Shown piece after piece: positions 16,799 to 59,489 of a stretch of 64,000 nucleotides of DNA. This DNA is from a virus, in IMG/VR virus record IMGVR_UViG_3300028558_000018, positions 1 to 64,000 of that record; one strand, written 5' to 3'. Below the pieces are notes generated by a model. The model saw only the letters and a list, made by a program, of their open reading frames with translations, was not told where the DNA came from and made no database searches. The position numbers and the translations under genes were made by a program. Each line of letters starts with the position of its first letter. Within the stretch, counting starts at the first letter, position 1.

Positions 16799-16805
16799 AA
16801 GGAAG

Positions 16806-16834
16806 ATTATGAAGAGTTGTTACTACTATGTCAA
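16806..16834 (-). promoter_or_regulatory. Leaderless promoter TTGACA-17-CATAAT-7-ATG
   Basis: On the minus strand a perfect TTGACA and a CATAAT -10 are separated by 17 bases, and the ATG at 16798 begins seven bases after the -10. Transcription should start at or next to the A of the ATG. Confidence 0.75.
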
Positions 16835-23722: not shown

Positions 23723-23723
23723 A

Positions 23724-24227
23724 TCACAGAGTCTTGCAAAATTTTCTTAGTTTGTCAAGACCATTTTTCGCGCCAAGATTATATACCGGAATCTTAAAAT
23801 GCTTCGCCAACCTCAGACATTGCGCAGTTCCTCCAACCATTTCGCCACCCTCAGTCCACGCGATAATAAATTCCGATAAAGGTTTATTATTTATTCCGCA
23901 TTGGCAAGTATTTCGGGCCATAAGTTGTCTCGCCCCCAATTTTAGCCCGTCCCAATTTGGGTGAAACTCTTTGGCTAAATCCCAATCAGCTTGTTTCCAG
24001 AGAAGTTTGCTTTTATTGTCGTTAAAACCCAACCAAGGAAGCCAAATTTCTTTTTCTCCGTTAGCTTCATCATAACTTTGCTCCCAAAAAGAATCGGCCC
24101 CAGTCGCGCCGCCAGAACGCAAAACATATCCTTTTTTAACTAGAAATGGGGCAATTTTGCGAACTATTTCTTTATAAGATTCTGGTGCGGAACGACTTCC
24201 AATACCCGCAAAATATTTTTTATCCAT
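23724..24227 (-). CDS. SLOG/DprA-like nucleotide-binding protein
   Basis: 167 aa with 'YFAGIGSRSAPES' near the N-terminus and 'GYVLRSGGATGADSFWEQ', the Rossmann-like SLOG pattern seen in DprA/SMF and phage relatives. A late 'EGGEMVGGTAQCLRLA' fits the second half of the fold. SLOG proteins bind nucleotides or nucleotide-derived signals. A role in sensing or countering host signalling is possible but only an inference. Confidence 0.75.
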   Translation of the reverse strand: MDKKYFAGIGSRSAPESYKEIVRKIAPFLVKKGYVLRSGGATGADSFWEQSYDEANGEKEIWLPWLGFNDNKSKLLWKQADWDLAKEFHPNWDGLKLGARQLMARNTCQCGINNKPLSEFIIAWTEGGEMVGGTAQCLRLAKHFKIPVYNLGAKNGLDKLRKFCKTL

Positions 24228-27640: not shown

Positions 27641-28072
27641 TTAAATTATTTCGCTGTCCTTTGATATTTCTTTATTCGAATCTTCTACAAACTGCGCAAA
27701 AGCATCTTCGAGAATCTTCACCGCCCAAATATTTAAACTCGTTGGCGGATCATAGTCAAGGGAAAAAAGTATATTTTTAGAATTTCCCTCGTTATCTAAT
27801 TCTTCTGTAAGACTCTCGCCCCAAATATAACAATTAGGAGGCAATCCGGCTTCAAAAGCCAACTCAACGGCGATTTGATGTAATGTGTAAATTTCTCCAA
27901 TTGATTCGGAGGTTAATTTTTGCGGATCAATTTTATGCGCAAATACGAATTTAGTATTGGGGTCGCCTAAATTAATCTTTTCCCACCGATTCTTGGTGAC
28001 TCTATTGATAATTTCTCCCAATAGCGAATCTAAAACTAACTTACCTTGGTTATAAACAATTTTTGTTTTCAT
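27641..28072 (-). CDS. Hypothetical protein, 143 aa
   Basis: Alpha/beta protein with 'AGLPPNCYIWGESLTEEL' and an acidic C-terminus. Unknown role; part of the exonuclease operon. Confidence 0.55.
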   Translation of the reverse strand: MKTKIVYNQGKLVLDSLLGEIINRVTKNRWEKINLGDPNTKFVFAHKIDPQKLTSESIGEIYTLHQIAVELAFEAGLPPNCYIWGESLTEELDNEGNSKNILFSLDYDPPTSLNIWAVKILEDAFAQFVEDSNKEISKDSEII

Positions 28073-28083
28073 TTTTTTTAATA

Positions 28084-28398
28084 TTACTCAATTTGCTCTG
28101 ATTCGTCAAAAATATCAGTGGTTGAATATGGTTGATCGGCGCAATAATCATTATAATTGTCCCATGCGGCTTTAATTTCTTTTAAAGTATGAAATCTTGC
28201 GTCACCGAAGTCACCTGTGCCGCTGAATTGTATAGAAACGTATTTCGCGCCGCCCTTTCTCGTCCAAGGGTAAAGCCAAAGAACGGAATCACCATAATAA
28301 GGAAATTCAATACCTAATCTATCAAAAAATAAATTATATTTATAGCCGAAGAAGCCATTTAATCTGGCACGAATAAATCTAATTAGTAAAAAATTCAT
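28084..28398 (-). CDS. Hypothetical protein, 104 aa
   Basis: Tyr/Trp-rich, beta-containing, with 'LWLYPWTRKGGAKYVSI', partly like the 92-aa protein at 23444. Function unknown. Confidence 0.55.
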   Translation of the reverse strand: MNFLLIRFIRARLNGFFGYKYNLFFDRLGIEFPYYGDSVLWLYPWTRKGGAKYVSIQFSGTGDFGDARFHTLKEIKAAWDNYNDYCADQPYSTTDIFDESEQIE

Positions 28399-30745: not shown

Positions 30746-31768
30746 TTAAACTTGGACCGCTCTTACATTAATTAGTCCATTCCAGTTTGACCCCCCGCTA
30801 TAACTGATCGCGCTCTGACAAGATTCTTTAATCTCTTGATATTTTTCAGCCACCGTTAACCCATTACAAGGAATTTTTACCTCGAAACCTTCAATGTTTT
30901 TTCGTTCTCCGTCTTTTTGTTTAACTGACGAAGACCCCCAATAACGTTTATAAATAATTTTGGGGAGCGGAATTTCTGGGTTAATAGAAATGCAACCATC
31001 GTAAATATTCTCTCCCGCCGCATCAATACACGCCGCAATTAGCCCCCCACACATAATCATAGGAACGCGAGGAGTAAACCCCTCATGTTTTTGCTTTTGC
31101 AGCCCCGCCCAAGTTGCTTTGATAATATCCGCATTTTCTCTAACGCCGCCGTCAAAAATAATATCCGTGTATCGTAACGTCACCGAACAATCAAGCGCGC
31201 AACTTAGCATCGGGACGTGAAATGAAGTCATATTTTTCGTAGAACAGATTCCACCCCCGCCGATTCCCACTTTGACCCCATCGCACCCCCAAGAAATAGC
31301 GTCCATTACAGCACTTTGGGTAGCAACATTTCCGCCGATCAATTTAACCGAAGGTAGTTCGTGCTTAACAAATCTCGCCATTTCTTGTCCGTTAAACGAG
31401 TTAAAATGAGCGATATCAATTGTTATGCAGTCCACGCGACATTTAGACTCTTTGATATCGCGGATTAATTGTTTGTCTTCTTCTTGAACTCCTATGGAAA
31501 TGGACACAAAAGGCCAGCTTTCGGCTCTTGCTTTTTGTAATAATTGTTTCGTCGCGCCGTGAAAACGATGATAAATGTAAAAATAGTTGTTAAACGCGCA
31601 CCATTTTGCAATATCAAGATTAATAACGCTTTCCATGTTCGACGGCATCCAGTTTCCATCGAATTTACGCCCTAAAAATGTAATCGACGTATCGGCCTCT
31701 TTGCGAGACTTTAAAACAGAAAAATTCGGGACGAGATAAATCTGATCATAACGTAGAGCTATATCCAT
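30746..31768 (-). CDS. GMP reductase / IMPDH-family enzyme
   Basis: 340 aa TIM-barrel enzyme. It has 'RYDQIYLVPN' at the start, the NADP-type strand 'KLIGGNVAT', phosphate-loop residues 'GVKVGIGGGGICSTKN' with catalytic C175, and 'DIIFDGGVREN'. The shape fits GuaC better than GuaB: no CBS domains and 340 residues. GMP reductase converts GMP to IMP with NADPH. In a phage it may shift purine pools for modified or dA-rich DNA. A leaderless-type promoter lies before its ATG. Confidence 0.85.
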   Translation of the reverse strand: MDIALRYDQIYLVPNFSVLKSRKEADTSITFLGRKFDGNWMPSNMESVINLDIAKWCAFNNYFYIYHRFHGATKQLLQKARAESWPFVSISIGVQEEDKQLIRDIKESKCRVDCITIDIAHFNSFNGQEMARFVKHELPSVKLIGGNVATQSAVMDAISWGCDGVKVGIGGGGICSTKNMTSFHVPMLSCALDCSVTLRYTDIIFDGGVRENADIIKATWAGLQKQKHEGFTPRVPMIMCGGLIAACIDAAGENIYDGCISINPEIPLPKIIYKRYWGSSSVKQKDGERKNIEGFEVKIPCNGLTVAEKYQEIKESCQSAISYSGGSNWNGLINVRAVQV

Positions 31769-31775
31769 AGAGGAA

Positions 31776-31804
31776 ATTTAGCCCTATTGCCCCGCCAAAG
31801 TCAA
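31776..31804 (-). promoter_or_regulatory. Leaderless promoter TTGACT-17-CTAAAT-7-ATG
   Basis: TTGACT, a 17-base spacer and CTAAAT on the minus strand end seven bases before the ATG at 31768. The promoter overlaps the end of the intergenic space after the 136-aa gene, so the GMP-reductase gene heads a new unit. Confidence 0.65.
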
Positions 31805-45280: not shown

Positions 45281-45354
45281 TGGCAGGAATATTTAGAATT
45301 GAACTAAAACTTAGCGGGTCAAAGCCGCTCGTGCAGCCGTTACACTATACTCCA
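45281..45354 (-). tRNA. tRNA-Gln(UUG)
   Basis: Folds as a cloverleaf: acceptor arm 2-7/66-71, U8-A9, D stem GTG/CAC, anticodon stem AGCGG/CCGCT with loop CTTTGAC (anticodon TTG), T arm TTTAG/CTAAA with loop TTCAATT, G73 and an encoded CCA. Position 1-72 is U-U, unpaired; tRNA-Gln often has a weak 1-72 pair that helps GlnRS. AT-rich phage genes use CAA heavily, so it may supply extra tRNA. Confidence 0.92.
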
Positions 45355-45370
45355 AAAAATTGATTCATAT

Positions 45371-45568
45371 TTAGATACTAACCGTTTCTGCGTTTTCTGC
45401 CAAATCTTTTTCTAATCTTTGTTTAATTAGTTGTTGAGACTCATTCTCAAAATCAAGTATTAGCATAGGAATCACTGTTTCAAAGGCTTTTACATAAATC
45501 GAACATTTATCCGCTTTGGAATGAACGACGTATTCCACTTTAGAACCATAATTAGTTTTTAACTGCAT
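45371..45568 (-). CDS. Small hypothetical protein, 65 aa, headed by its own promoter
   Basis: Beta-containing small protein with 'YVVHSKADKCSIYVKAFE' and a helical Leu/Gln-rich tail. A promoter of the leaderless type ends six bases before the ATG, so it starts the long minus-strand transcript. Unknown function. Confidence 0.6.
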   Translation of the reverse strand: MQLKTNYGSKVEYVVHSKADKCSIYVKAFETVIPMLILDFENESQQLIKQRLEKDLAENAETVSI

Positions 45569-45574
45569 AAGATG

Positions 45575-45603
45575 ATATATTTATTTTGTTTAATATAAGT
45601 CAA
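45575..45603 (-). promoter_or_regulatory. Leaderless promoter TTGACT-17-ATATAT-6-ATG
   Basis: Minus-strand TTGACT lies in one arm of a perfect 10-bp inverted repeat (ATAAGTCAAG / CTTGACTTAT). The -10 ATATAT is 17 bases away and ends six bases before the ATG at 45568. Confidence 0.65.
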
Positions 45604-45611
45604 GATTTTTC

Positions 45612-45640
45612 TTGACTTATTTAATTCATTTTTCGTTTAT
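45612..45640 (+). promoter_or_regulatory. Divergent promoter for the HNH gene (TTGACT-17-GTTTAT-8-ATG)
   Basis: The other arm of the inverted repeat provides the plus-strand TTGACT. A -10-like GTTTAT follows after 17 bases and lies eight bases before the ATG at 45649. The two divergent units therefore share a central palindrome that could serve as a common operator. Confidence 0.5.
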
Positions 45641-45648
45641 CATCAATT

Positions 45649-46251
45649 ATGAATCTTTATAAAGACTACCCAGAATATCTTAAATCATTACATTGGAAAA
45701 ACTTAAATAGCTCTATTAGAGCGCGGGCCAATTATAAATGTGAGATTTGTTCCGGTCAAGATAAACCCGTTCCGTGCGACGAAGTTCATCATATTAATTA
45801 CCGCAATTGGATTGATGTTTTAGATAGTGATTTGATTGCGGTTTGTGAGTCATGCCATTGTAAAATTCATGAAGCGATAAAATCGGGATATATTAATCAA
45901 GATAACAAAGGGTCTAAAGAAAATACCATAGAGGGGCTTGTCAATTTTCAAAAGAATGGCCCGAAACTTTCTAGAGAAAAAAGAACTACTTATTATTTTA
46001 ACCAAAAATTAATAGATAAGATGAATGACGCCAATTACATGGCAAAATTAAAAATAAAGGGGATTTTAAAGGTTTCAACGACAGATTTTTCCTATCTTTT
46101 GGGAAAAAGCGTTAGAAAGTCTATCTATTTTAGAATTTTACGAGCTTCCAGTTTCGAAGTTCCTTATAGAAAGAGCTTTATAGATATAATGAAGAGACAT
46201 AAAGATACTTTGTATTGGCCGAAAGAAGAGGGTAAAAAGAGAAAAATTTGA
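45649..46251 (+). CDS. HNH endonuclease-like protein
   Basis: 200 aa. The HNH core is 'KCEICSGQ' and 'VHHINYRN', then 'LIAVCESCHCKIHEAI', with four Cys for the structural zinc. The C-terminal half is basic and of unknown fold. It is on the plus strand, with its own divergent promoter, next to a tRNA and a large non-coding region. It could be a homing enzyme or a packaging-type HNH, but no terminase lies nearby. Confidence 0.85.
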   Translation: MNLYKDYPEYLKSLHWKNLNSSIRARANYKCEICSGQDKPVPCDEVHHINYRNWIDVLDSDLIAVCESCHCKIHEAIKSGYINQDNKGSKENTIEGLVNFQKNGPKLSREKRTTYYFNQKLIDKMNDANYMAKLKIKGILKVSTTDFSYLLGKSVRKSIYFRILRASSFEVPYRKSFIDIMKRHKDTLYWPKEEGKKRKI

Positions 46252-46289
46252 CAAAATCTAATCATTTACATATCATCATATGTTCCCTC

Positions 46290-46980: not shown

Positions 46981-47009
46981 TTGACAAAAATGATATAAGC
47001 GATTAGTAT
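46981..47009 (+). promoter_or_regulatory. Leaderless promoter TTGACA-17-TAGTAT-7-ATG
   Basis: Perfect -35, 17-base spacer and TAGTAT -10 (extended TAGTATCTT). The ATG at 47017 follows the -10 by seven bases. Identical cores occur at 51938 and 58423. Confidence 0.85.
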
Positions 47010-47016
47010 CTTCTAA

Positions 47017-47289
47017 ATGCTAGTTATATTTCCATTAGTCGTTTACTTCTTTTTCTGGTTAATTAACCATTCGGAGGGAATTTCTCCATATGTGAAACTT
47101 CATACGGAATTCTTGCCCGCGAAAATTCAATATGCGTTATCTTGCCCCGCGTGCTTTTCCTTCTGGAGCACGTTATTTATAATTTTCGGTTCTCAATATC
47201 CGTATTATTTAATTTGCACAACGCCCGTGCTTACAATGTTTTTAAATTTAACCTATCTAAAACTTTCTCAAAATAATGATAATCAATAA
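47017..47289 (+). CDS. Small membrane protein, 90 aa
   Basis: Hydrophobic N-terminus (residues 1-17) and a second pair of segments after 'SCPACFSFW'. The CPxCxxFW motif is typical of small DUF1360-like membrane proteins. It lies in front of, and overlaps, the sigma-factor gene by 14 bases, so the two may work together. Confidence 0.6.
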   Translation: MLVIFPLVVYFFFWLINHSEGISPYVKLHTEFLPAKIQYALSCPACFSFWSTLFIIFGSQYPYYLICTTPVLTMFLNLTYLKLSQNNDNQ

Positions 47290-47860
47290 CTTGGACGACA
47301 CGACTTTAATCAATAATGTTCGAGAGGGAATTCAACTCAACGAATCCACAAAAGAGCTAATTCACCGTCACAGTGGCGTTTATTTCAAAGTCGCCTCACA
47401 ATTCAAAAGCAACCCCAATGTTAATTTCAACGACGTAATCGACAACAAAGACTTCAATATTTATCACGCCGCGCTTAATTACGATTCTTCGCGGGGCACT
47501 TTTTGTAATTTAGTTGGCCAAATGGCTCGTTATGAGTGCTTAAAACATATTCAGAGTAAAAAAACTGAAAAAATTAAGACTATTGAGATTGATTCTCAAG
47601 AAGAGTATTTCGCGCCGCCCGTTTCAGAAGACAATGTGGTTAGCAATGTGGGTCTTAACGAAACATATGAAACTATTGACGAAGTTTTGTCCCATTTCGA
47701 TAAAGAAACTCGGGCAATTTTCTCCCAACGAATTAATGGAGATAAAGGGCGAGTGTCTTGGAGAGATTTAAAAGATCGCAGTAATTACTCTCATGAATCG
47801 CTTAGAACAAAAAATAAAAAGATTATTAACAAATTGAAAGAGAAACTGCAAGTTGCCTAA
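47276..47860 (+). CDS. Phage sigma factor (sigma-70 family, regions 2 and 4)
   Basis: 194 aa. Region 2 shows 'AALNYDSSRGTFCNLVGQM' followed by 'ARYECLKHI'. Region 4 is a C-terminal helix-turn-helix, 'RVSWRDLKDRSNYSHESLRTK'. Regions 1 and 3 are missing, as in many phage or ECF-like sigma factors. It probably directs host RNA polymerase to phage promoters. The genes after it begin with TAATTTATT-ATG, without their own promoter until 51938. Confidence 0.8.
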   Translation: MIINNLDDTTLINNVREGIQLNESTKELIHRHSGVYFKVASQFKSNPNVNFNDVIDNKDFNIYHAALNYDSSRGTFCNLVGQMARYECLKHIQSKKTEKIKTIEIDSQEEYFAPPVSEDNVVSNVGLNETYETIDEVLSHFDKETRAIFSQRINGDKGRVSWRDLKDRSNYSHESLRTKNKKIINKLKEKLQVA

Positions 47861-47866
47861 TTTATT

Positions 47867-48964
47867 ATGAATAAACCACTTACATTTGATACCGCCGTAA
47901 ATAATTTGAGCTTCGGCTTCGTCGGATTCAATATTATTAAAGAATTATATCGCCGCGAATATCCCGTAAATATTCTCGCAAAGGGCGGGTCGCTTGATTT
48001 TTCTAGCTTCGATAAAGCCTCCGATGAATTAAAAAATAAAATTCGTTCAAATGCCCAAAATTTCTTTTCTTCGTTTAACCGTAATAATCCAACCCTTCAG
48101 ACGTGGCACATAAACGGCAGCGAGTCCCATGTAGGCGCGAAAAATAACCTCCTAACGTTTTTTGAGCTAGACCAACTCACCCCCAGCGAAACCAATATTC
48201 TCAATAATCATCACCAAATTTTCGTCACAAATGAAGAGGCTCGCCAAACTTTTCTCGATTATGGAGTAGAACGCCCCGTTTATAATATTCCCCTTGGGTT
48301 CGATAAAGACCAATTTTTCGCCACAGGTAAAAAATATCTAAGTAACGATACCACCGTTTGGGCTATTAATGGTAAATTTGAAAAACGGAAGAAAACATTG
48401 GAAACGGCGCGGCTCTGGTTAAAGAAATATGGTAACAATCGTAATCATCGGCTGCATCTCCATGTTTATAACCCCTTTTTTAGCAAAGAACAGAACCAAC
48501 AGCTTTTGGCTCAAATCTTTGAAAACAAGGAATACTGGAATGTTTCGTCCTTTCACTATACAACTACCCTCAGTGAACTTAACGATGCCTATAACTGTGC
48601 AAATATCGTCATCGATATGAGTGGTGGCGAAGGTTGGTCGCTACCAAGTTTTCACATGACAGGACTAGGCAAACATGCAATTGTTCTTAACTCTACTGGA
48701 ATTAAAGAATGGGCGATAGAAGATAATGCCGTGCTTGTTCAACCTAACGGAAAAGAAGATGCCGAAGATAAGGTTTTCTTTCACAAGGGGCAGTTATTTA
48801 ATCAGGGTAATTTTTACACCTTTGATTCTAATGAATTCAGCGATAAACTTGATATCGTTCTCAAAAGAAGTCTTGCTTCGAGAGTTAATAGCGCGGGCCT
48901 AGAGATTCAAAATAAATTCACTTGGCAAAATACTGTTGATCAATTACTTGCACATATTTCTTAA
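47867..48964 (+). CDS. Glycosyltransferase, GT4-like (GT-B fold)
   Basis: 365 aa. The second half has 'WAINGKFEKRKKTLETARLW' and 'VIDMSGGEGWSLPSFHMTGLG', the donor-binding strand-loop (E-x7-E-like) of GT4 enzymes. The first half is the acceptor domain with 'FVTNEEARQTF'. Likely transfers a sugar from a nucleotide donor onto a virion or surface acceptor. Follows the sigma gene after six bases. Confidence 0.8.
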   Translation: MNKPLTFDTAVNNLSFGFVGFNIIKELYRREYPVNILAKGGSLDFSSFDKASDELKNKIRSNAQNFFSSFNRNNPTLQTWHINGSESHVGAKNNLLTFFELDQLTPSETNILNNHHQIFVTNEEARQTFLDYGVERPVYNIPLGFDKDQFFATGKKYLSNDTTVWAINGKFEKRKKTLETARLWLKKYGNNRNHRLHLHVYNPFFSKEQNQQLLAQIFENKEYWNVSSFHYTTTLSELNDAYNCANIVIDMSGGEGWSLPSFHMTGLGKHAIVLNSTGIKEWAIEDNAVLVQPNGKEDAEDKVFFHKGQLFNQGNFYTFDSNEFSDKLDIVLKRSLASRVNSAGLEIQNKFTWQNTVDQLLAHIS

Positions 48965-48984
48965 TGATTTACCGTTGTTTAATC

Positions 48985-49000
48985 TTAACGCCCGCGTTAA
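48985..49000 (+). repeat. Perfect 6-bp hairpin in the 104-base gap
   Basis: TTAACG-CCCG-CGTTAA between the glycosyltransferase and FmdB-like genes. No T run follows, so it is not a standard terminator; a repressor site or RNA processing site is possible. Confidence 0.4.
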
Positions 49001-49068
49001 TAATTCACGATAGACAATAAAATTTCACTTTTTTATCAATTTAGGGTAATTTAATCAAGGAATAAGGT

Positions 49069-49458
49069 ATGCCAAATTATTTGTATCAACATCCCGAAAC
49101 GGAAGAAACGATTGAATTGTTTCAGCACATGGACGAGCCGCACAACTATGTTGATGAATCTGGTCAACTATGGAATAGAATCTTCACAATTCCTAATGCC
49201 GCAAGCAATACTGCCAAAATTGATATTTATTCCGCTAAAGATTTTTCGCGGAGAACCGCTGATAAAAAAATGACCTTCGGCGAGGCATGGGACGAATCCG
49301 CCCGCTTATCTGCTGCTAGAGAAGAGAAAGAAGGGGTAAATCGTGATCCTGTGAAATTGGCGCACTTCGATAACTATTCAAAAACTCGCAAGGGGCTTAA
49401 ACATCATCTGGATACGCGCCCACAAGTTGTTCTTAAAAGAGCCAAGAAGAAAAAGTAA
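49069..49458 (+). CDS. FmdB-like small protein without zinc cysteines
   Basis: 129 aa. The first 50 residues follow the FmdB zinc-ribbon layout (MPxYxYxxxxxxxxxxxxQ...) but have no Cys, so the site is lost. The rest is Lys/Arg-rich and probably disordered. T4-like phages carry similar proteins of unknown role. This is one of few genes with an AAGG-like sequence near its ATG. Confidence 0.6.
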   Translation: MPNYLYQHPETEETIELFQHMDEPHNYVDESGQLWNRIFTIPNAASNTAKIDIYSAKDFSRRTADKKMTFGEAWDESARLSAAREEKEGVNRDPVKLAHFDNYSKTRKGLKHHLDTRPQVVLKRAKKKK

Positions 49459-49464
49459 TCTCTC

Positions 49465-51072
49465 ATGCCCTATTCTCCCATTAGAATTCAACAACTCGAC
49501 TTACCTAATTTATCTGGGTATATCGGTTCTGTGCTTGCGGGTTCTCAGGCTGTGTTGATTTATGGCGACCAAACCGGAATTTCAGGCCGCAAAGTCTTCC
49601 TCGGCACAATTGATTTTAGTGGCAATACTTCAATTTCAGGCGGAATTAACTTTAGTCGCACAAATTATAATCTCAACCCATTTGGTCAATTTGAAGTAGG
49701 CGCGCTATCAAATATCAGCGCCGATCCTTATTTGGCCCAACTTTATGATTTAACCAACGGAGCATATATCGCCCTAGATTGGAACTCGCGCTCTTTATCC
49801 GGCCAATGGGCGTCTAATGTGGCACCCTCTTGGACAGGACATTTGGTTAATTTGGGGTTTCTTCAAACTGGAAATTTCGGCGCGAATCCTTATGTGGTAA
49901 ATACCGTTAGCGGGCAAACTATTAGCGGCGTGAAATTATTTCTAGCCCCTGCTTCTTTTCAATCTGGACTAAATTCGGATAACTTAAGTATTTTTAGTCC
50001 TATTTATCAAGACGGAGATACTATTTTTGAAATAAATTCCGGCAATAATATTTCTTGGAGTAAAGGACAACTGCAAAACAACGCTTCTGTTTATTTAAAT
50101 TGGACTGGACAACAATTAAGCGGGCAAGATTGGAAGAGTGACAATTCAAATCCGACAATTCCCTTTCATATCATTAATTATGATTATTTAACGGGCGGCG
50201 CGATTATTCCTATTTTGGGTCTGCCCACTCTATCCGCCAATCAAACATTTTTAGGTCAAAATACCTTCCGTAATATTCAACTAATCGGCGGCACGGGAAT
50301 TGATTTTAGCGGCAATCTTTATTTAACGCAATCGGGAAGTTTCTCCTCTGGATTCAATGGGCCGAATGTTTTTGACCCAAATACCGCGACTTTTAAAGAT
50401 TTTAGCAACGTATCTTCATTAAATTATTCCGCGAGAACCTTATCCGGCCAATGGAAAACAAATAATTCACCGTCTCAATCTGGAGATTTGATTAATTATA
50501 GTTATTTAACATCTAATTATGCTAATTTAACAGGAAATCAGAATTTTTATGGTTCAAATAACTTTTCGGGACTAACGACTTTTAGCGGCATTAATATTTC
50601 CGGGGGAAGCGGGATTCAACTTAGCGGCAATTTAAATATTTCACAATCTGGAACAATTAATTCTGGCGCGTCAACTATCTACGACCCAAATAGTGCTCAA
50701 TTTAATGATTTTAGCGGCAATAATTCTCTAAATTACGATACTCGCACGCTATCTGGGAACTGGAATACTTCTGGGAATCTTTATTTCCCTATCGGTTCTG
50801 GAGTAGGATATCCCACTGGAAACAACTCTTTAATTGGCACGGGAAGATTGATAACGGGCGGCGCGACAATTACTACTTCCGCGATTAACGCCAACGGGTT
50901 TATTTTTCTACAGCGTTCTTTAATTGTTAATTCTACTGGAGTAGGACAACTTGCCCCGTCAGGAATCGTTGCAAACAGCTACTTCTCAGTTCGCTCATTA
51001 ACAACTTCTGGGACTATTAATGTAAACGACAGCGGAAGTTTTTATTGGGAAATAAGTAATCCATCGAATTAA
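49465..51072 (+). CDS. Repetitive fibre/tail protein, 535 aa
   Basis: Rich in Ser, Gly, Asn and Thr with few charges. A module of about 150 residues recurs three times plus a short fourth: 'LSGQWASNVAPSW', 'LSGQDWKSDNSNP', 'LSGQWKTNNSPSQ' and 'LSGNWNTSG', each followed by '...INY/LGFL/YLT' and a beta stretch with 'ISGGSGIQLSGNLN'-like turns. This is the form of trimeric beta-helical fibres. No collagen or peptidase domain is seen. Confidence 0.75.
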   Translation: MPYSPIRIQQLDLPNLSGYIGSVLAGSQAVLIYGDQTGISGRKVFLGTIDFSGNTSISGGINFSRTNYNLNPFGQFEVGALSNISADPYLAQLYDLTNGAYIALDWNSRSLSGQWASNVAPSWTGHLVNLGFLQTGNFGANPYVVNTVSGQTISGVKLFLAPASFQSGLNSDNLSIFSPIYQDGDTIFEINSGNNISWSKGQLQNNASVYLNWTGQQLSGQDWKSDNSNPTIPFHIINYDYLTGGAIIPILGLPTLSANQTFLGQNTFRNIQLIGGTGIDFSGNLYLTQSGSFSSGFNGPNVFDPNTATFKDFSNVSSLNYSARTLSGQWKTNNSPSQSGDLINYSYLTSNYANLTGNQNFYGSNNFSGLTTFSGINISGGSGIQLSGNLNISQSGTINSGASTIYDPNSAQFNDFSGNNSLNYDTRTLSGNWNTSGNLYFPIGSGVGYPTGNNSLIGTGRLITGGATITTSAINANGFIFLQRSLIVNSTGVGQLAPSGIVANSYFSVRSLTTSGTINVNDSGSFYWEISNPSN

Positions 51073-51078
51073 TATCAC

Positions 51079-51107
51079 TTGACACTCACAGCACAATTTT
51101 ACTGAAT
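51079..51107 (+). promoter_or_regulatory. Promoter of the SSB gene with a 5' leader (TTGACA-17-CTGAAT)
   Basis: The same -35 and spacing as the leaderless set, but the ATG is about 80 bases downstream. The leader is C/A-rich and should be unstructured near the start codon, which fits strong expression of SSB. Confidence 0.55.
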
Positions 51108-51186
51108 ATACACTCAGGAAACCTTTTAGATAAAGTAATTTATTTAAATTGAATACACAAACAACAAAACTCAACACACAAATATT

Positions 51187-51876
51187 ATGGCTATTGGAAA
51201 AACAGGCGGCGCGTCGAACAAGAATCTTTTCTCGGTTCGCGTAATCACAAAGGATAAGGACAAGAAACCCGTAGACCCTCATTTCTCTTTCGTTCAAAAA
51301 GTAGAAGGAGTTTATAAAGAGGTTCAAACTAGCACTTCTTTTAATGGTAATGTTACCTCTGTAACGACCAAACTTGAAGAATATCAGGGTAATCCTCTTA
51401 AGAAAGTTATCGTTAAAGTGGAAGACGAAAGCGACGTTTATTACGTTGATTTTAATTACACCATTCTTTCGCGCTCAGTATTCAACACCCTGCTAAACGT
51501 TGCTCTTGGAGAATCGGTCAAATTTAGCATTTATCTTGCTAAAGCTAACCCGCAAGGTAAACGTTATCCTCAAATCTCCCTCTGGCGTCCTGTCGAAGGT
51601 CAGGAGAAGGATGAAATGATTCGTTGGAAGTTTCAGGTAGACGAGCTTCCTCCCACGAAGAAAGTCCGTGTAAAGGGCCAAGATATTACCGACACAGAGG
51701 ATGTTGATAATTTCTTTGAGGCGGAGATTCAAAAGACATTTGGCGGCGGGGCTAAAGCTCAAGTTACTCCGAAGGCCGAGGCCAAACCTGCCTCGAAAGC
51801 AGACAAAACTACGAAAGCGACCAAAACGGTAAAAGCCGCTCCTGCCGATGAGGATACGAGCGATATCCCATTTTAG
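51187..51876 (+). CDS. ssb: Single-stranded DNA-binding protein
   Basis: 229 aa. Residues 1-150 are a beta-rich OB-like domain. A long Lys/Ala/Thr linker follows, and the protein ends 'DEDTSDIPF', which copies the acidic tip of bacterial SSB. That tip recruits host repair proteins. The OB sequence itself is divergent, so assignment rests on size, linker and tip. The gene has its own promoter and terminator. Confidence 0.7.
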   Translation: MAIGKTGGASNKNLFSVRVITKDKDKKPVDPHFSFVQKVEGVYKEVQTSTSFNGNVTSVTTKLEEYQGNPLKKVIVKVEDESDVYYVDFNYTILSRSVFNTLLNVALGESVKFSIYLAKANPQGKRYPQISLWRPVEGQEKDEMIRWKFQVDELPPTKKVRVKGQDITDTEDVDNFFEAEIQKTFGGGAKAQVTPKAEAKPASKADKTTKATKTVKAAPADEDTSDIPF

Positions 51877-51901
51877 TCGTTAATTATCAATAACTTACAC
51901 A

Positions 51902-51939
51902 AGTCCCGCGAGGTAATTCTCTCGGGGCTTTTTATTTTT
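51902..51939 (+). terminator. Intrinsic terminator after ssb
   Basis: Stem AGTCCCGCGAG / CTCTCGGGGCT (one mismatch, one G-U pair), loop GTAATT-like, then TTTTTATTTTT. The next promoter's TTGACA starts in the T tract, so transcription restarts at once. Confidence 0.9.
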
Positions 51940-51966
51940 GACATTTAAATAGAAAATCATTAGTAT
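51938..51966 (+). promoter_or_regulatory. Leaderless promoter TTGACA-17-TAGTAT-7-ATG
   Basis: Identical core to the promoter at 46981, ending seven bases before the ATG at 51974. Lies directly after the ssb terminator. Confidence 0.85.
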
Positions 51967-51973
51967 CTTTTAT

Positions 51974-53884
51974 ATGCCCGAAAAGAAAAAAATCGTCGCC
52001 ATCCACACAGATTCCCCTATTTCAAAAACTGGATTAGGTCGAAATGGGCGGGCGTTGGCCAAATATTTACTATCTACTAATAAATACGATATTCGTTACT
52101 TCTGCACGGGATTTCCTTGGTCGGCGCATGAGTTACAAAAACTCCCATTTAAGGCTCAGGGGTGTTTACCTGATAATCAAAATGAATTAATGGTGTTGCA
52201 AAATGACCCCGGCAAACTTCGTGATGCTTCCTACGGCGCGTTGCTAATTGATAAATTCGTCAAAGAAAATCGTCCTGATGTAATGATTTTTAGCAATGAT
52301 TCTTGGAGTTTTAATAATTATGACAAAAAGGCTTGGTGGAATAAGTTTCATTGCGTGCCGCATATTACTCTCGATTCTCTTCCTTTTTTAAAAGACCAAA
52401 TTGAGTTTATTAAAAATTCTAAAATTTTCACTGTTTGGGCTAAGTTTGCCCAAGAAGAAGCTGCGAGAATTGGGTTTAAAGATGTAAAAACTATTCCCGC
52501 GATTATTGAACACGAATATTTTAGGCCATTAAACGATTCTAAAAAGAATGAACTGCGCAAAAAATTCAATATTCCTCTTGATACCTTTGTAGTGGGCTTC
52601 GTGTTTCGTTCTCAATTGCGCAAAGAAGTAAAACCCCTTCTGGAAGGATTCGCGGAATTTAAACGTAATAATCCAGAGGCTAAAAATGCCAAACTCCTTC
52701 TCCATACAAATTTCGCAGAAGGATGGGATATTCCAAAATTAATCGAGGATTTAGGGATTAATAAAAACGATATTCTCACAACGTATTTTTGCCGTGAATG
52801 CGGCGAATATGAGATTAAATCCTTTGTCGGCCAAGATCAAGATTGCAAATATTGCGGCGCGATTAAATCCCAAATCACTTGTAATGTAGCCCAAGGTGTT
52901 AGCGAAGAAAAACTCAATGAAGTTTATAACCTAATGGATGCCTATTGCCATTTGGCAAACGCTGGCGGCTGCGAGATGCCTATTATTGAGGCTTTATACG
53001 CGGGCTTACCCATCGCGACGGTAAATTACTCCTTTGGCAAAACCTTTACCGATGAATCTTTTTGTTATACTATCGAGAGTGCGAAAACTATTCAATTTCA
53101 AACTCAATTTGACCGTGCAGCCCCTTATGCGTCTTCAGTGGCAAAATTTATGCGGCGGATTTTTAATTTAGACAAATCGGCTCGTAAAAAACTTGGCGAG
53201 CAAGGGAGAGAATTCGCGCTCAAAACATTTTCACCAGAAATAGTTGGAAAGCAATGGGAACAGCTTATAGATGCTTTGTCAGAAGTCACTTATGATTATA
53301 ATTTCGATTATGTTAAAAAGAATCCTTCATATCCTTTTCCAGAAATTTCTGATGTTAATGAATTTCTTACAACCCTTTATGACAATATTTTAAAACAACC
53401 CGAACCAATTAATGGTGATGGGAGAAAGTATTGGCTAGAGACAATTTCTAAAGGTGTGTCCCGCGCCGATGTTTATAAATATTTCGTTAAAGTCGCAATG
53501 GACGATAATAATAAGAATTTGGGCATCAAACTTGAAGACTTTTTCGATGGAGAGGTTGATAATCGGATTTTATTTGCTATTCCCGAGGATGAAACCGCCG
53601 TGTTGCATACTTTATCTCTACTCAAATCATGTAAAGAAACCTATCCAGAGTGCGATATTTATGTAGCAACTCATCCAGAGTTTAAAAATCTCCTAAATGG
53701 CAATCCTTATATTTATAAGCATTTAAATTTTATGCCAGAATTTGAAAATTTCATCTTAATGGAGGGCGGCGCGAATAAAGGCTATGTGAAATATCTATTT
53801 CTCCCTCACGTTAATGCGCAAAAGTTTCCTAATTTTATTCACAATAATAGTGATAAATCAATTTACCCTACAATTTCAGTATGA
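51974..53884 (+). CDS. GT4 glycosyltransferase with zinc ribbon and a C-terminal half-GT9 domain
   Basis: 636 aa. N-terminal GT4 region (about 1-440) includes a zinc ribbon 'CRECGEYEI...CKYCG' and the donor loop 'LANAGGCEMPIIEALYAGLP'. After about residue 515 a different domain begins, 'NRILFAIPEDETAVLHTLSLL' and 'YPECDIYVATHPEFKNLLNG', which looks like the N-terminal half of a GT9 heptosyltransferase. The C-terminal half appears to be the next gene. The ATGA overlap suggests the halves are made together. Confidence 0.75.
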   Translation: MPEKKKIVAIHTDSPISKTGLGRNGRALAKYLLSTNKYDIRYFCTGFPWSAHELQKLPFKAQGCLPDNQNELMVLQNDPGKLRDASYGALLIDKFVKENRPDVMIFSNDSWSFNNYDKKAWWNKFHCVPHITLDSLPFLKDQIEFIKNSKIFTVWAKFAQEEAARIGFKDVKTIPAIIEHEYFRPLNDSKKNELRKKFNIPLDTFVVGFVFRSQLRKEVKPLLEGFAEFKRNNPEAKNAKLLLHTNFAEGWDIPKLIEDLGINKNDILTTYFCRECGEYEIKSFVGQDQDCKYCGAIKSQITCNVAQGVSEEKLNEVYNLMDAYCHLANAGGCEMPIIEALYAGLPIATVNYSFGKTFTDESFCYTIESAKTIQFQTQFDRAAPYASSVAKFMRRIFNLDKSARKKLGEQGREFALKTFSPEIVGKQWEQLIDALSEVTYDYNFDYVKKNPSYPFPEISDVNEFLTTLYDNILKQPEPINGDGRKYWLETISKGVSRADVYKYFVKVAMDDNNKNLGIKLEDFFDGEVDNRILFAIPEDETAVLHTLSLLKSCKETYPECDIYVATHPEFKNLLNGNPYIYKHLNFMPEFENFILMEGGANKGYVKYLFLPHVNAQKFPNFIHNNSDKSIYPTISV

Positions 53885-55041
53885 AACTCCTTTCCTCCTA
53901 CGCCCTTACGACAGGTTTAGTCGCCAATAAACCAGAAATTATCGAAGAATACGTTCCCTTTTCCAAAGACTTATCAAAAGTCGTGCTATTTAATTTTAGC
54001 TCTCCCCATCAGAGTAAAATTTATGATTATGGCCAAGACGTTCTTGATATTATTGGTCCTATTTTGCAAAAATATGGCTATATTACTATTCAACTAGGGG
54101 AAGAGAAAGATAATCGACTTCGCACGGAATATTCTCTCATGGGAATGCCGCCCGCCCAAAAAGCCTATTTGATTAAAAATTGCGCGCTAATTGTTTCCAC
54201 CGATTCAATTCTTCTTCATTATGCAGGAATCTTTGATACGAAAAATATCGGAATATATGGCCCCACTCACCCAAATAGTCACGGCCCAGCTTGGGGAAAA
54301 CATATTGCAATTCGTAATTGTAAGAATAAACCCAGCTATTTTGTTCAAGAATTTCCCAAATCAATTAATGAAAATAAGCCCGAGGATATTGCGCGAGAGA
54401 TTTTGGCCCAATTAGGTATTAAAGAAGAAATCGGCTATTCTAGCTTATATTTTGGTCAAAACTATCCCTCGTTAGTGCTAGAATTTATCCCCAACCATTT
54501 AATTCCGCCAGATTTATTTGCGGGTAAAGATTTAATAGTTCGCATGGATTATCATTTTAATGAAGAATGTTTATCTATTATTGGTAAACAACGCAAGGTT
54601 TCCATTATTAGCGAAAAAGAGATTAATTTGCAACTAATTAAAGAAATTAAGAAAAATATTGCATTTTTTAATTACCGAGTTGATAAAAATTGTAATATTG
54701 AATATTGTAAAAAACTAAAAGAAACCGGCGCGAAAGTTATTTTCTTTAGTGAAGAGAACGAAGAAGATTTGCGTCTCACGAGAATCAGGCTTTTTGACAT
54801 TGCGTTGGTGGAAAACTTTAAAAAGGACGAAAAACCTCTTGACTTCAAAGAGACAAAATTTGATTCTTCCTTTTACTTTAAAAGCTATAAATTTATTCTC
54901 AGCGATGGTAAAATCTTCATTTCAAAGCCCCACTGGGAAGCCGATTTGCCAATTAAATCATTTAATGAGAATATTCATAGCGTAATTGATACATCAGAAT
55001 TCTGGAAAGATACAAATTTGTTTTATATATTTCAAAAATGA
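53881..55041 (+). CDS. GT9 C-terminal-half protein (heptosyltransferase-like)
   Basis: 386 aa. Residues 30-180 show 'KVVLFNFSSPHQSKI', 'GYITIQLGEEKDNRL' and 'LIVSTDSILLHYAGIFDTK' followed by 'GIYGPTHPNSHGP', the donor-binding half of the GT9 fold. The second half, 190-386, is not recognised. It lacks its own acceptor half, which sits at the end of the gene before it. It would add a sugar, perhaps heptose-like. Confidence 0.7.
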   Translation: MKLLSSYALTTGLVANKPEIIEEYVPFSKDLSKVVLFNFSSPHQSKIYDYGQDVLDIIGPILQKYGYITIQLGEEKDNRLRTEYSLMGMPPAQKAYLIKNCALIVSTDSILLHYAGIFDTKNIGIYGPTHPNSHGPAWGKHIAIRNCKNKPSYFVQEFPKSINENKPEDIAREILAQLGIKEEIGYSSLYFGQNYPSLVLEFIPNHLIPPDLFAGKDLIVRMDYHFNEECLSIIGKQRKVSIISEKEINLQLIKEIKKNIAFFNYRVDKNCNIEYCKKLKETGAKVIFFSEENEEDLRLTRIRLFDIALVENFKKDEKPLDFKETKFDSSFYFKSYKFILSDGKIFISKPHWEADLPIKSFNENIHSVIDTSEFWKDTNLFYIFQK

Positions 55042-55787
55042 GCACTCCACAAATTGTCCAACGCGATAAAGACGGGCTTCTGCCAAATATTGTATATCAA
55101 TATAACGAAGATGGCACGGTAGATTATAAAGCGATGATTCCACCTCAATTCATTGTTTTTAATCGCCAAAAAGAGGCCGATATTAAAAGCACTTATAATA
55201 AAGAGTTAAAAGAGCTAAACCCCATTGAGTGCGACCCAAAATATCAACTCATTCTTCTTGCGGGATTCAAACATATTGCGAAAATTCGCGGGTATAATAA
55301 AGTGGTTTTTTCTCGCCCCAGTTACGGAATGAATGGGGTAAGCGTCACTTGCGATATTACTTGGCGGCAAAATTATGAAACAGAAGGAGAAGTGACTTAT
55401 GGCGATGTCGGCGGCGCGTCAACCAATAATACTTCTCCAATTGGTAAAAATAAACTCGGCGAATGGGCATATTACCTTGAAACAATTGCCGCTAATCGTG
55501 CATTTGTTCGTGCCGTAAGAAACTTTTTAGCAATTCCCACCCTTGGATTTGACGAAATTGGTAGTTCTCTTAGTGAGGAAACCCCTCAAACTATGGAAAT
55601 TAGCCCGCCGCACATTAATCTTGAGAGAAAATGTGCCGCAAAGGGGATTAAACTCGAATTTTTGATTAAAAAGGCCATAAAGGATAAATGGGAGCTAGAG
55701 GGAAATCCTTCCGAGTGGACAGAATGGAAGGATATTAGTCCGAGGGATAGTTATGCCTTACTGAGTATTATTACCAAAGAGAAATAA
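55038..55787 (+). CDS. Possible Rad52/Erf-like single-strand annealing protein
   Basis: 249 aa. 'EWAYYLETIAANRAFVRAVRNFL' resembles the helix of the Rad52-type annealing proteins (the AxxxAxKRA pattern), and 'YQLILLAGFKHIAKIRGY' fits the preceding strand-helix. The C-terminal part is helical. It would pair with SSB and RecA for recombination, though two glycosyltransferase genes separate it from ssb. The match is loose, so other functions remain possible. Confidence 0.4.
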   Translation: MSTPQIVQRDKDGLLPNIVYQYNEDGTVDYKAMIPPQFIVFNRQKEADIKSTYNKELKELNPIECDPKYQLILLAGFKHIAKIRGYNKVVFSRPSYGMNGVSVTCDITWRQNYETEGEVTYGDVGGASTNNTSPIGKNKLGEWAYYLETIAANRAFVRAVRNFLAIPTLGFDEIGSSLSEETPQTMEISPPHINLERKCAAKGIKLEFLIKKAIKDKWELEGNPSEWTEWKDISPRDSYALLSIITKEK

Positions 55788-55827
55788 TTTCGCTTTTAGC
55801 TAGGAAAAGGGTATCTTTTCTTGGCTC

Positions 55828-56313
55828 ATGGCGGTAATTCAATCAGCGTCTAAAGGAATAAGGCTCCCCACTATAATTCAAAGTGGTGGAATATCCTATT
55901 ATCCGTTAGATTTAGTCTTGGTAGATAACGGAGGTAGTTACACTGGAACATTTTACCCCGGCACGATTAATGGGCTATTGCCGTCTAATTATTTGGCGCT
56001 AACTATTCCTAAAACTGGCACGAATTATATTATTTTAGATGTAACTTTGGCCAACGCGCAAGTCCAAACTGCCGTTTTTTCTACTAGCACGAGCGCCCCA
56101 GAAGGATACCCAGTTACAGAAACGACGCCGCCAACAAATATTTCAATTTTAACTCACGTTGTTATAGATGGGGCGATTTTCAGAGTAATTGGCAATGGTA
56201 GCCAGCAATTGACCCCAGCAACAATGTTTTACACAGATAAAACTTCTACTATAGCTGTTGGAGAACGCCCAGTGATTCCTTGGTTCAGTTATACTCTAAC
56301 AACCACGAGTTAA
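55828..56313 (+). CDS. Beta-rich virion protein, 161 aa
   Basis: Low in charge, rich in Thr, Ile, Gly and Ser, with 'GSYTGTFYPGTINGLLPSNY'. Likely a small tail or fibre protein or assembly factor. Two bases before the large Ser/Thr-rich fibre gene. No signal peptide. Confidence 0.55.
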   Translation: MAVIQSASKGIRLPTIIQSGGISYYPLDLVLVDNGGSYTGTFYPGTINGLLPSNYLALTIPKTGTNYIILDVTLANAQVQTAVFSTSTSAPEGYPVTETTPPTNISILTHVVIDGAIFRVIGNGSQQLTPATMFYTDKTSTIAVGERPVIPWFSYTLTTTS

Positions 56314-56314
56314 C

Positions 56315-58426
56315 ATGCCTTTAACATGGTATCAGATAGGGGATGGTCCCGCACCTTGGAGCAATGCAACATCTTATTCTTCGTCTTATGACGATACCCT
56401 CTCCTCATCTGATAGTGTTTTCCTTTCGTGGGCTGGTTCTACCATGAGTAGTTATACACAAGAAGCCCAATATAAACAAGAATATTCCTCAAAAGATAAT
56501 GTCTTTGATTCAAATGATACTTATTCAAACTTTCAATCAAATTTTGGCGGAACATATTATACCCACAGTGATTATAATCAAACTATAACCTCCTCTTTCT
56601 CGGCCTCCCAAACAACAAGCAGAAGTTTTATAAATTTCCATCAAGATTTTTCCTTTATCAGTCTTGCAAACGAAAAAGAATATCAATTTTCCGATTCCGT
56701 TGGGATAGTCAGCCACTCGATAGAAACTCATAACGGAAGCGCCTCTTACTTTTTCAAAACAGATTATATCGGGGGCGAAACCGCATCATATTATTATAGT
56801 TATATAACGGTAGAAAACGGAGGAATGACCCTTTCGCAAAGATACGGCACCTACATAGGGACTTTTCCATTTACTACTTTTACGTATTCTACTCAGGTAG
56901 ATACGGCTTCCACGGGTATAACCAATACTTATTATACTTCCAGCACTTATTTAATATCAACTTTATCAGCAAATACTTCCACGGCCCTATTTAGCGTTGA
57001 AAGTAATATTAGAGTTTCTACCACAGAAACACAATATACCACCCAAATAATCTCGACCATTTTAAGTTCCGACACGGGGACAGATACTTCTACTTATGTA
57101 AGCACCAGCTATGACAATACCACTTGGACAATAACCACAGTGGGAATATCCCCAATAACATCTTTCGTTCCCCAAGGAGTATCATCCACCTACTCTCCCA
57201 ATTATCAATATATTGCCCCAGTAATTTCCGCCCTTCCATCGGAATATCTTTTTGAATTTAAAACAACGGCCAATGGATTTTTGGCCGCGTCAAGTGATTT
57301 GGAAGAATTTAGAGTTAAAACATTTGGTTCTTGGAAATTTAGCGGATCAGAAGGCTCTCCGTTTACTCTTTCTATAGGAACAGATTCTTCGTCTAATTTT
57401 CATCACACCGTTACTTATTTTTTGGCTTTAGCTTCAACGATCGCGCAAAATTCTTCTAAAAATCTTTTTGCGACGGTCACTCAATATGGATTCAATGGGG
57501 AGATTCCAACCCCAGAATCTTTATCTTACACGCAAGTAATTTCTTTACCAACTCCGACAACGACGGCATTTAATATACAAAATATAACGACTTCAACGGC
57601 GACTGCATCCGGCGCGAGAACTTATTCTAAGTGGACTAAATTAACATTTGACACTACGACATCAATAAATAAGATTGGATGGGACCAAAATCAAAATAGT
57701 TATTTGTTTACGATGGCGTCGCTTATAAATAGCTACTCTATTGTTAGTTACGCTAGTTGGAGAGGAAACGCAGGGGAAACCGTTTCTACTTACGCAAGTC
57801 CCGCCGGTTGGAATATAAATACCTCAGTTGGTAATATGACTCAAGAAAGATTACGGCTTATAGGAGGATATCAAGGAAGCGAAATCGGTTCAAATCAAAA
57901 TGTGGGAAAATATTTAGACGCGCTAATTAGTTTTTATATTGGATATCAATCGGCGCAAGGAGCACGGGAATCAAATAATACTCCTGTTGATTATTCTACC
58001 TCGGCAACAACAAGCGATAGTAGTTATTTTTTCTCCCTTGGATCAAATTCTTATTGGAGCGTGACGGTTCTTGCAGATATTACAACGACTTCATTTTCCG
58101 CAAACGTGGCAACAATAGGCGGAAATGGAGGCTATTTTGCCCTAGAAAATAATGGTGGGACTCAAGCGGGAGGGGGGTTTCCTCACGAAAACCAAGTTCA
58201 ATATGCAACTCTATCAAACGCCCTTGATTGGAGATATACTTTGAGAGATAGCGCGGGGACATCTTCTTATTCGACTCAATTAAATGTATCGTTTTTTACA
58301 TTAGATATTAGCTCCAAAATAATGGCCATTCAAGGATTACCTGCCACGATAGCATCTCCCGATATGACGCAAGCGGGATATGGAACTTATACTTCTATTT
58401 CCGCTGTCAATGGGGAATTATATTGA
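56315..58426 (+). CDS. Ser/Thr/Tyr-rich fibre or tail protein, 703 aa
   Basis: Extremely rich in Ser, Thr and Tyr, with few Lys or Arg and no Cys: 'SYSSSYDDTLSSSDS', 'SSTYLISTLSANTSTALF'. No transmembrane segment. Composition fits a long beta-structured tail-fibre or adhesin; such Ser/Thr-rich surfaces could be glycan acceptors for the glycosyltransferases next to it (inference). Confidence 0.65.
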   Translation: MPLTWYQIGDGPAPWSNATSYSSSYDDTLSSSDSVFLSWAGSTMSSYTQEAQYKQEYSSKDNVFDSNDTYSNFQSNFGGTYYTHSDYNQTITSSFSASQTTSRSFINFHQDFSFISLANEKEYQFSDSVGIVSHSIETHNGSASYFFKTDYIGGETASYYYSYITVENGGMTLSQRYGTYIGTFPFTTFTYSTQVDTASTGITNTYYTSSTYLISTLSANTSTALFSVESNIRVSTTETQYTTQIISTILSSDTGTDTSTYVSTSYDNTTWTITTVGISPITSFVPQGVSSTYSPNYQYIAPVISALPSEYLFEFKTTANGFLAASSDLEEFRVKTFGSWKFSGSEGSPFTLSIGTDSSSNFHHTVTYFLALASTIAQNSSKNLFATVTQYGFNGEIPTPESLSYTQVISLPTPTTTAFNIQNITTSTATASGARTYSKWTKLTFDTTTSINKIGWDQNQNSYLFTMASLINSYSIVSYASWRGNAGETVSTYASPAGWNINTSVGNMTQERLRLIGGYQGSEIGSNQNVGKYLDALISFYIGYQSAQGARESNNTPVDYSTSATTSDSSYFFSLGSNSYWSVTVLADITTTSFSANVATIGGNGGYFALENNGGTQAGGGFPHENQVQYATLSNALDWRYTLRDSAGTSSYSTQLNVSFFTLDISSKIMAIQGLPATIASPDMTQAGYGTYTSISAVNGELY

Positions 58427-58451
58427 CAATTTGTTTAATTTTAGATAGTAT
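58423..58451 (+). promoter_or_regulatory. Leaderless promoter TTGACA-17-TAGTAT-6-ATG
   Basis: Third copy of the same core. The -35 overlaps the fibre gene's stop and the -10 ends six bases before the ATG at 58458. Confidence 0.85.
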
Positions 58452-58457
58452 CTTTAT

Positions 58458-59489
58458 ATGGTTTTATCAGTTGTTGTTTGTGCTACAAAATCTTATACCT
58501 ATGCGATGAAGGCTCAGGCTAGACGGGTTTGTTCTGCGCTGAATTTGGCAAAAATAGAAAAAGCTCATATTTTTATCGTTGGGGATGATTCAAAAGAGTT
58601 AAAAGAAATAGAGATTTTTTGGAAAAACGAGTTATCTGGCCATGAAGTTCAACTAATTCAAAATAAGCAATTCATAGAAGGTCAATCGGCAAATTATAAG
58701 AAAAATGCCCAATTACTTATCGCGGATATGCGTTCCGTCGCTCATTCTTTAGCGCGCAAGGCAAAATCTGATTTTTGTTGGTCGTTAGATAGCGATACCC
58801 TGCCACAGCCTAATGCGCTAAGATGTTTGCTTGATACTTGCAATTTTGATGGAGGGTTTTATTCAGTGGCAATGTGCCCTTATCCAAATACGGCTTTTCT
58901 TGGTGGGTTTGGCACCCCGCAAAATCCAATCGCCGAAGATTTTCTTCCTCACGAAAGAATACTTCCTTGGAAATTAAAGAGGGTATGGGAGGCCAACGAA
59001 AAGCTACTTAAAGAATGGACTTTTAAAGATCGCCCTGATAAATTAATTGATAGAAAAGAACGTTTATATAAAAAGATTAAAGAGTGTCCTCCCGATGGAA
59101 ATATTTGGCAAGTCGTTGGCAAGTATGGATTTAGGCAGCGTGGATGGCTCGACCAAGCATATCCATCAATCGGATACGGTTCTACCGTCCCAACTCGTTG
59201 GGTTGGAATGGGTTGCACCCTAATGAATAAACAGGCTCTTGAATTAGCCCATTTCGAGGGCTATACAGGAGAGGGCACAGAAGATTTATTTATTGGCTGG
59301 CATAGATGGTATCCAGCAGGACTAAGAATGGCGGTTCTACCCCATTGCCCAGCAGATCACGTAATTTGGGACAAAAAGAAAGGCGGCGACGAAAATAAAT
59401 ATATTCTCCACCACGTTTATCACGAACAAATGGGGGAATGTGCCGGTCATCTAAGAGTGAAGCAAATTCCTTGGCGCAAAGAAATTTAA
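58458..59489 (+). CDS. Glycosyltransferase, GT2-like
   Basis: 343 aa. 'LSVVVCATKSYTYAMKAQ' and 'AKSDFCWSLDSDTLPQPNAL' give the GT-A nucleotide region and DxD metal site. The second half has 'WVGMGCTLMNKQAL' and 'GTEDLFIGWHRW', typical of GT2 proteins that act on virion proteins. Has its own leaderless-type promoter and ends convergent with the next gene. Confidence 0.8.
   Translation: MVLSVVVCATKSYTYAMKAQARRVCSALNLAKIEKAHIFIVGDDSKELKEIEIFWKNELSGHEVQLIQNKQFIEGQSANYKKNAQLLIADMRSVAHSLARKAKSDFCWSLDSDTLPQPNALRCLLDTCNFDGGFYSVAMCPYPNTAFLGGFGTPQNPIAEDFLPHERILPWKLKRVWEANEKLLKEWTFKDRPDKLIDRKERLYKKIKECPPDGNIWQVVGKYGFRQRGWLDQAYPSIGYGSTVPTRWVGMGCTLMNKQALELAHFEGYTGEGTEDLFIGWHRWYPAGLRMAVLPHCPADHVIWDKKKGGDENKYILHHVYHEQMGECAGHLRVKQIPWRKEI

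Follow-up and report, generated by a model that had tools for sequence, protein, structure and literature searches.

The three sites and the genes behind them

The window, that is, the whole stretch of DNA that we analysed (64,000 nucleotides), is the first part of IMG/VR record IMGVR_UViG_3300028558_000018, a virus contig of 144,389 bp from an uncultured tailed phage. Its assignment to tailed phages is based on genes for the terminase large subunit (TerL) and the tape measure protein; the record also encodes a primase, a UvsX-like recombinase, PhoH and a ClpP-like protein. A megablast search of the record against the known phages in INPHARED revealed no near phage, and its TerL and tape measure proteins are just 21-31% identical to those of known phages. 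In a search for the host, alignment of TerL against genome_contigs gave no relative, while alignment of the glycosyltransferase led to a single short contig, part of a MAG from uncultured Bacteroidetes, which is not decisive. Elsewhere in the window, at 1729-2943 (+), an IS605 OrfB/TnpB-like gene with a Cas12f1-like TNB domain lies inside the phage. For comparisons, we used a related set of six IMG/VR contigs that share TerL (54-64% identity) or glycosyltransferase (36-41% identity) with the record; G002, G004 and G005, below, are such relatives.

The sequence TTGACA-N17-TAGTATCTT lies exactly where the preliminary description had placed it, at 46981, 51938 and 58423, with an ATG codon 7, 7 and 6 nt after the TAGTAT hexamer. 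These are the only exact copies in the record. The spacing-relaxed pattern TTGACA-N15-19-TAGTAT is expected 0.04 times in the window by chance, and none of 100 shuffles reached three occurrences. The three promoters had been called identical, which is true of their boxes, but not of their spacers. The first (46981..47016, +) has its -10 box at 47004-47009, followed by CTTCTAA and the ATG at 47017. The second (51938..51973, +) has its -10 box at 51961-51966, followed by CTTTTAT and the ATG at 51974; an intrinsic terminator of the upstream gene (51901..51937, +; -17.5 kcal/mol, z -4.9) directly precedes it, and the terminator's U-tract runs into the -35 box. The third (58423..58457, +) has its -10 box at 58446-58451, followed by CTTTAT and the ATG at 58458; its -35 box overlaps the TGA stop codon (58424-58426) of the preceding gene.

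The unit behind the 46981 site begins with a gene for a 90-aa protein (47017..47289, +) that has no family assignment and whose N-terminus, as read from the sequence, is membrane-like. The second gene (47276..47860, +) encodes a 194-aa protein that is probably a sigma-like transcription factor. This assignment comes from weak profile matches, namely to the PHROG transcription regulators PHROG_36/248 (E ~3e-4), and from a homologue in G004 (28-30% identity) that matches the phrog_351 sigma factor (E 2.8e-4). The protein has no match in Pfam or PDB, and a single-sequence AF2 model was unusable (pLDDT 36). The third gene (47867..48964, +) encodes a glycosyltransferase (phrog_2170, E 1.3e-15) with homologues in G004 and G005. 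Thus, the earlier statement that the 46981 site heads a sigma-factor operon is right as to the position of the promoter, but the sigma-like gene is the second of the unit and is recognized by weak profile matches only. The 51938 promoter does precede a glycosyltransferase operon, as had been proposed. The operon opens with a 636-aa group 1 glycosyltransferase (51974..53884, +), whose N-terminus is in register with its homologues in G004, G005 and G002, and continues with a GT9 gene (53881-55041) and a further gene (55038-55787). The gene behind the 58423 site (58458..59489, +; 343 aa) had been described as a second glycosyltransferase gene; it does directly follow its promoter, but its Pfam GT2 matches are sub-threshold (E 0.004), so we regard it as a possible GT2-type glycosyltransferase. 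Pattern scans of IMG/VR with the sigma-like gene, with the 58458 gene and with a nuclease gene at 15764 (see below) found no relatives, and for the 58458 gene they thus yielded none that could confirm the start codon. Weak homologues of the sigma-like and 15764 genes do occur among the related contigs.

A class of promoters at a fixed distance from start codons

We examined the 60-nt stretch ahead of each called gene of the record, taking as the presumed start the first ATG, GTG or TTG of each open reading frame. TTGAC lies most often 34, 35 or 36 nt before the start codon (4, 11 and 9 genes), and every other distance is represented by 0-3 genes. TTGAC begins 33-37 nt before the start codon in 27 of 238 genes, where 0.87 are expected from 500 dinucleotide shuffles, the highest of which gave 5. 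The preliminary description had made its reading depend on whether the motif is overrepresented beside gene starts; across the record, it strongly is. The sites at 46981, 51938 and 58423 are the strictest members of this larger class and form no special trio.

TAnnnT occurs at a spacer of 16-18 in 15 of the 27 class genes, as compared with 3.2 expected by the null; the spacers are 16 (9 genes), 17 (5) and 18 (1), and apart from a smaller group of 6 with a spacer of 20, other spacers are nearly empty. In 14 of the 27 genes, 6, 7 or 8 nt separate the end of the hexamer from the start; in no gene is this distance 9-12 nt. Besides TAGTAT, its versions include TAACGT, TAGAGT, TAGTGT, TAGTCT, TAAATT and TAATAT. 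Given that TAnnnT is found in 15 of 27 genes and in many variants, TAGTAT is best considered one version of a degenerate -10 box. The sites also tend to have A or T before TTGAC, and a pyrimidine-rich stretch between the -10 box and the ATG, so that in several genes the first purine past the -10 box is the A of the ATG. In the other genes of the record, a TAnnnT that lacks TTGAC is not in excess at 6-8 nt, and its occurrences at 0-1 nt within operons resemble a TAA stop codon followed by TTATG.

Several further members illustrate the class. On the minus strand, these precede a PD-(D/E)XK nuclease gene (15764-16798; promoter 16799..16834, TTGACA-N17-CATAAT-CTTCCTT, then ATG), the gene at 23444-23722 (23723..23758, TTGACA-N17-AAGACT, then ATG) and a phrog_9582 dehydrogenase gene at 30746-31768 (31769..31804, TTGACT-N18-TAAATT-TCCTCT, then ATG). 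A weaker member (28073..28109, -; TTGACG-N17-TAATAT-N8-ATG) belongs to the gene at 27641-28072 and lies partly within the upstream gene. Two other members face away from each other: the promoter of the gene at 45371-45568 (-) occupies 45569..45603 (-), with TTGAC at 45603, and that of an HNH-like gene at 45649-46251 (+) occupies 45612..45648 (+), with TTGAC at 45612. Almost all of this 80-bp intergenic region (45569-45648) consists of the two back-to-back promoters of leaderless type.

The signal is present on 1 of 126 genes that follow their neighbor with a gap of at most 10 nt, versus 26 of 111 genes with larger gaps or divergent neighbors. The sites thus combine the features of sigma-70-type promoters, i.e., a TTGACA-like -35 box, a spacer of 16-18, a TAnnnT -10 box and a position at the start of transcription units. 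A Shine-Dalgarno 4-mer occurs in none of the 27 class genes and in 22 of 211 other genes, which is likewise near background. With TAnnnT ending some 5-8 nt before the start in about half of its genes and no Shine-Dalgarno sequence, the class also shares two sequence features of leaderless (TA-led) genes. Within the structural block (59-101 kb), the signal is carried by 1 of 34 genes (75103-75876). As the majority of these genes lie close together, we regard this scarcity, which concerns few units, as a tendency only. The sequences preceding the structural genes revealed no clear late promoter motif.

Recurrence in other contigs

Pooling the six related contigs, 13 of 310 genes have the signal, against 1.4 expected from mononucleotide shuffles, and the peak is at 35 nt, the exact distance of eight TTGAC sites. 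In G004, TTGACA-N17-TAAAGT-N6-ATG heads the operon with the sigma-like homologue, and a second, divergent site adjoins it; in G005, TTGACA-N17-TATTAT-N6-ATG heads the glycosyltransferase operon. The glycosyltransferase orthologue of G004 has no promoter of this class directly before the gene. Across the relatives, the style of promoter is kept, and the individual sites are not conserved gene by gene.

We also scanned IMG/VR twice for TTGACA-N17-TAGTATCTT, the first time with an ATG in the pattern and the second time without this condition. Among the matches listed, which come from mostly unrelated contigs and comprise 75 distinct sites, 15 sites have an ATG 6-7 nt after the hexamer, compared with about 2 per position elsewhere; 11 of these 15 ATGs begin a frame of 50 codons or more. 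This enrichment is somewhat inflated, since part of the set comes from the first scan.

Interpretation and alternative explanations

A sigma-70-type holoenzyme initiates about 7 nt past the -10 box, and the spacing of the boxes to the ATG would therefore make the A of this codon, or a base no more than about 2 nt away, the transcription start (+1). The motif, its spacing, its genome-wide excess, its placement at unit starts, the lack of Shine-Dalgarno sequences and the recurrence in relatives, all reported above, point to about 27 leaderless-type sigma-70 promoters that would be used by the host's housekeeping polymerase and would start transcription at, or at most about 2 nt before, the A of the ATG. 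We assign this interpretation a probability of roughly 0.85. A counterweight is the degenerate -10 box, as just 15 of the 27 genes have TAnnnT at a spacer of 16-18. The preliminary description held that the mRNAs must be leaderless. The geometry favors this idea, but "must" is too strong, as a leader of 0-2 nt fits equally well and some promoters of the same type, whose -10 box ends 12-20 nt before the start, should give leaders.

The actual 5' ends, the polymerase and the leaderless mode of translation are what we infer from the sequence, and the proposed course of events is as follows. The host's housekeeping RNA polymerase would recognize the -35 TTGAC and -10 TAnnnT boxes, so that +1 coincides with the A of the ATG or precedes it by no more than about 2 nt. 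The approximately 27 promoters would in this way start transcription units mainly outside of the structural block, and ribosomes may translate the leaderless or near-leaderless mRNAs by directly recognizing the 5'-terminal AUG. Downstream genes of an operon would be reached through their tight packing, by coupling or reinitiation.

It is important to consider that boxes near ATG codons might arise by chance in an AT-rich genome. Indeed, promoter-like matches as such are no more common than in shuffles (50 found over 15 kb, with 44.4 expected for DNA this AT-rich), which means that the signal is carried by spacing to the ATG only. However, it is exactly this positional excess that none of the 500 shuffles approached and that recurs in the related contigs, and chance is therefore an extremely improbable explanation. 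Another concern is that the promoters are real, while translation truly starts at codons further downstream, on mRNAs with leaders. The called starts are the first possible codons, and the 47017 gene has an in-frame GTG at 47092 with GGAGGG about 15 nt upstream of it. However, the distance peak is located at an ATG for 26 of the 27 class genes, where random internal shifts would blur it, and the N-terminus of the 51974 glycosyltransferase is in register in three relatives. We consider downstream starts very unlikely.

The polymerase might also take a different form, if TTGAC and TAnnnT are the site of a phage regulator or of the phage's own sigma-like protein; the leaderless geometry would be kept in this case. 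The phage does encode such a protein, and the sites share the A/T before TTGAC and the pyrimidine-rich discriminator. Nonetheless, TTGAC with a spacer of 16-17 to TAnnnT is housekeeping geometry, the sigma-like gene is itself behind such a site, the class is widespread in early-type genes, and mostly unrelated phages have the same box at the same distance among the matches listed. We therefore judge a phage-specific factor to be very unlikely and retain the host's housekeeping polymerase in our preferred interpretation. A further, rather doubtful hypothesis is that genes are sorted by their mode of translation, such that early or non-structural units are leaderless and the structural block has leaders, some with the SD-like AAGGAATAAGG. 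If so, a change in the state of the ribosome or initiation factors could switch between expression classes.

Relation to known leaderless expression

The leaderless cI mRNA of phage lambda is made from PRM, which is a sigma-70 promoter. In the literature, lambda cI is named as a leaderless phage mRNA in a review that covers translation starting on a 5'-terminal AUG (PMC9031893), and lambda and P2 are both named for leaderless mRNAs (PMC4633059). Our predicted transcripts would likewise be leaderless phage mRNAs from sigma-70 promoters, although cI is a single gene. Zheng et al. 2011 (PMC3160421) identified leaderless (TA-led) bacterial genes by the lack of a Shine-Dalgarno sequence together with a TANNNT box, resembling a -10, some 12 nt upstream of the start codon. 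The present class has the same box geometry, also without Shine-Dalgarno sequences, and is similarly read as having +1 on the start codon. However, it belongs to a phage and has a strong TTGAC -35 box in addition, and, despite the low GC content, the middle of its -10 box is degenerate as in high-GC groups.

Among phages, Thermus phage phiYS40 is reported to make most of its middle and late transcripts leaderless, with a shift in IF2/IF3 (reviewed in PMC3594737). Both phages have many leaderless transcripts (predicted ones, in our case), but those of phiYS40 are middle and late, whereas our class lies mostly outside of the structural block. Cluster O mycobacteriophages (the Corndog group) have SigA-like promoters from which transcription is predicted to begin at the first base of the start codon (PMC4351075). 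They also have a divergent pair, like the one at 45569-45648, but three such promoters as opposed to about 27, and differ in host and GC content.

Leaderless phage expression is therefore known in kind. What is new is the number of promoters (~27), the lineage, with no near phage in INPHARED, and the visibility of the class as a distance peak in an uncultured phage. If our interpretation is correct, leaderless expression in uncultured phages can be read from sequence as a sharp peak of TTGAC-to-ATG distances. A large share of the recognizable promoters of one phage may be of leaderless type, i.e., about half of the 28 intergenic sites described below. Start-codon calling could also improve, given that gene finders expect a Shine-Dalgarno sequence, and the range of hosts would be narrowed to organisms in which leaderless mRNAs are translated efficiently.

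Similar promoters with probable leaders

Intergenic TTGAC/TAnnnT sites number 28. In 14 of them, the distance from the end of the site to a called start is 5-8 nt, and the next modes are at 12-20 nt. Two further sites lie 5-8 nt before other ATG codons, at 124912 (-), which opens a 92-codon frame, and at 109279 (-), which opens one of 19 codons. Eight others end 12-41 nt before a start, some followed by an SD-like GAGGGAG or similar sequence; about 8 promoters of the same type should thus give short leaders, a minority in this phage. An RNA gene has the same boxes: TTGGCA-N17-TAGTAT (45375..45403, -) lies about 20 nt upstream of a lone tRNA-Gln (TTG) gene (45281-45354, -). Use of this promoter type with short leaders and for a tRNA argues for reading the boxes as promoters and against a role as translation signals.

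The best match to the sigma-70 consensus in the 45-60 kb region is at 46248-46276 (+), where TTGACA-N17-TATCAT agrees at 11 of 12 positions. This promoter faces a region with minus-strand genes only, and an ATG 3 nt past its -10 box opens 16 codons. It may also drive the sigma-like operon, giving an RNA with a long leader toward 47017, or produce an antisense RNA.

SD-like AAGGAATAAGG or AAGGAACAAGG sequences precede the genes at 49069 (+) of the window and at 68166 and 75889 (-) of the record, which sets these genes apart from others in the genome. Finally, at 107-119 kb of the record (-), e.g., at 114684 and 116355, there is a subset of promoters with GC-rich sequence past the -35 box (TTGACggcgcgc...) and leaders that end in ...CTAAATCAAATT-ATG, which is perhaps a separate, leadered family.
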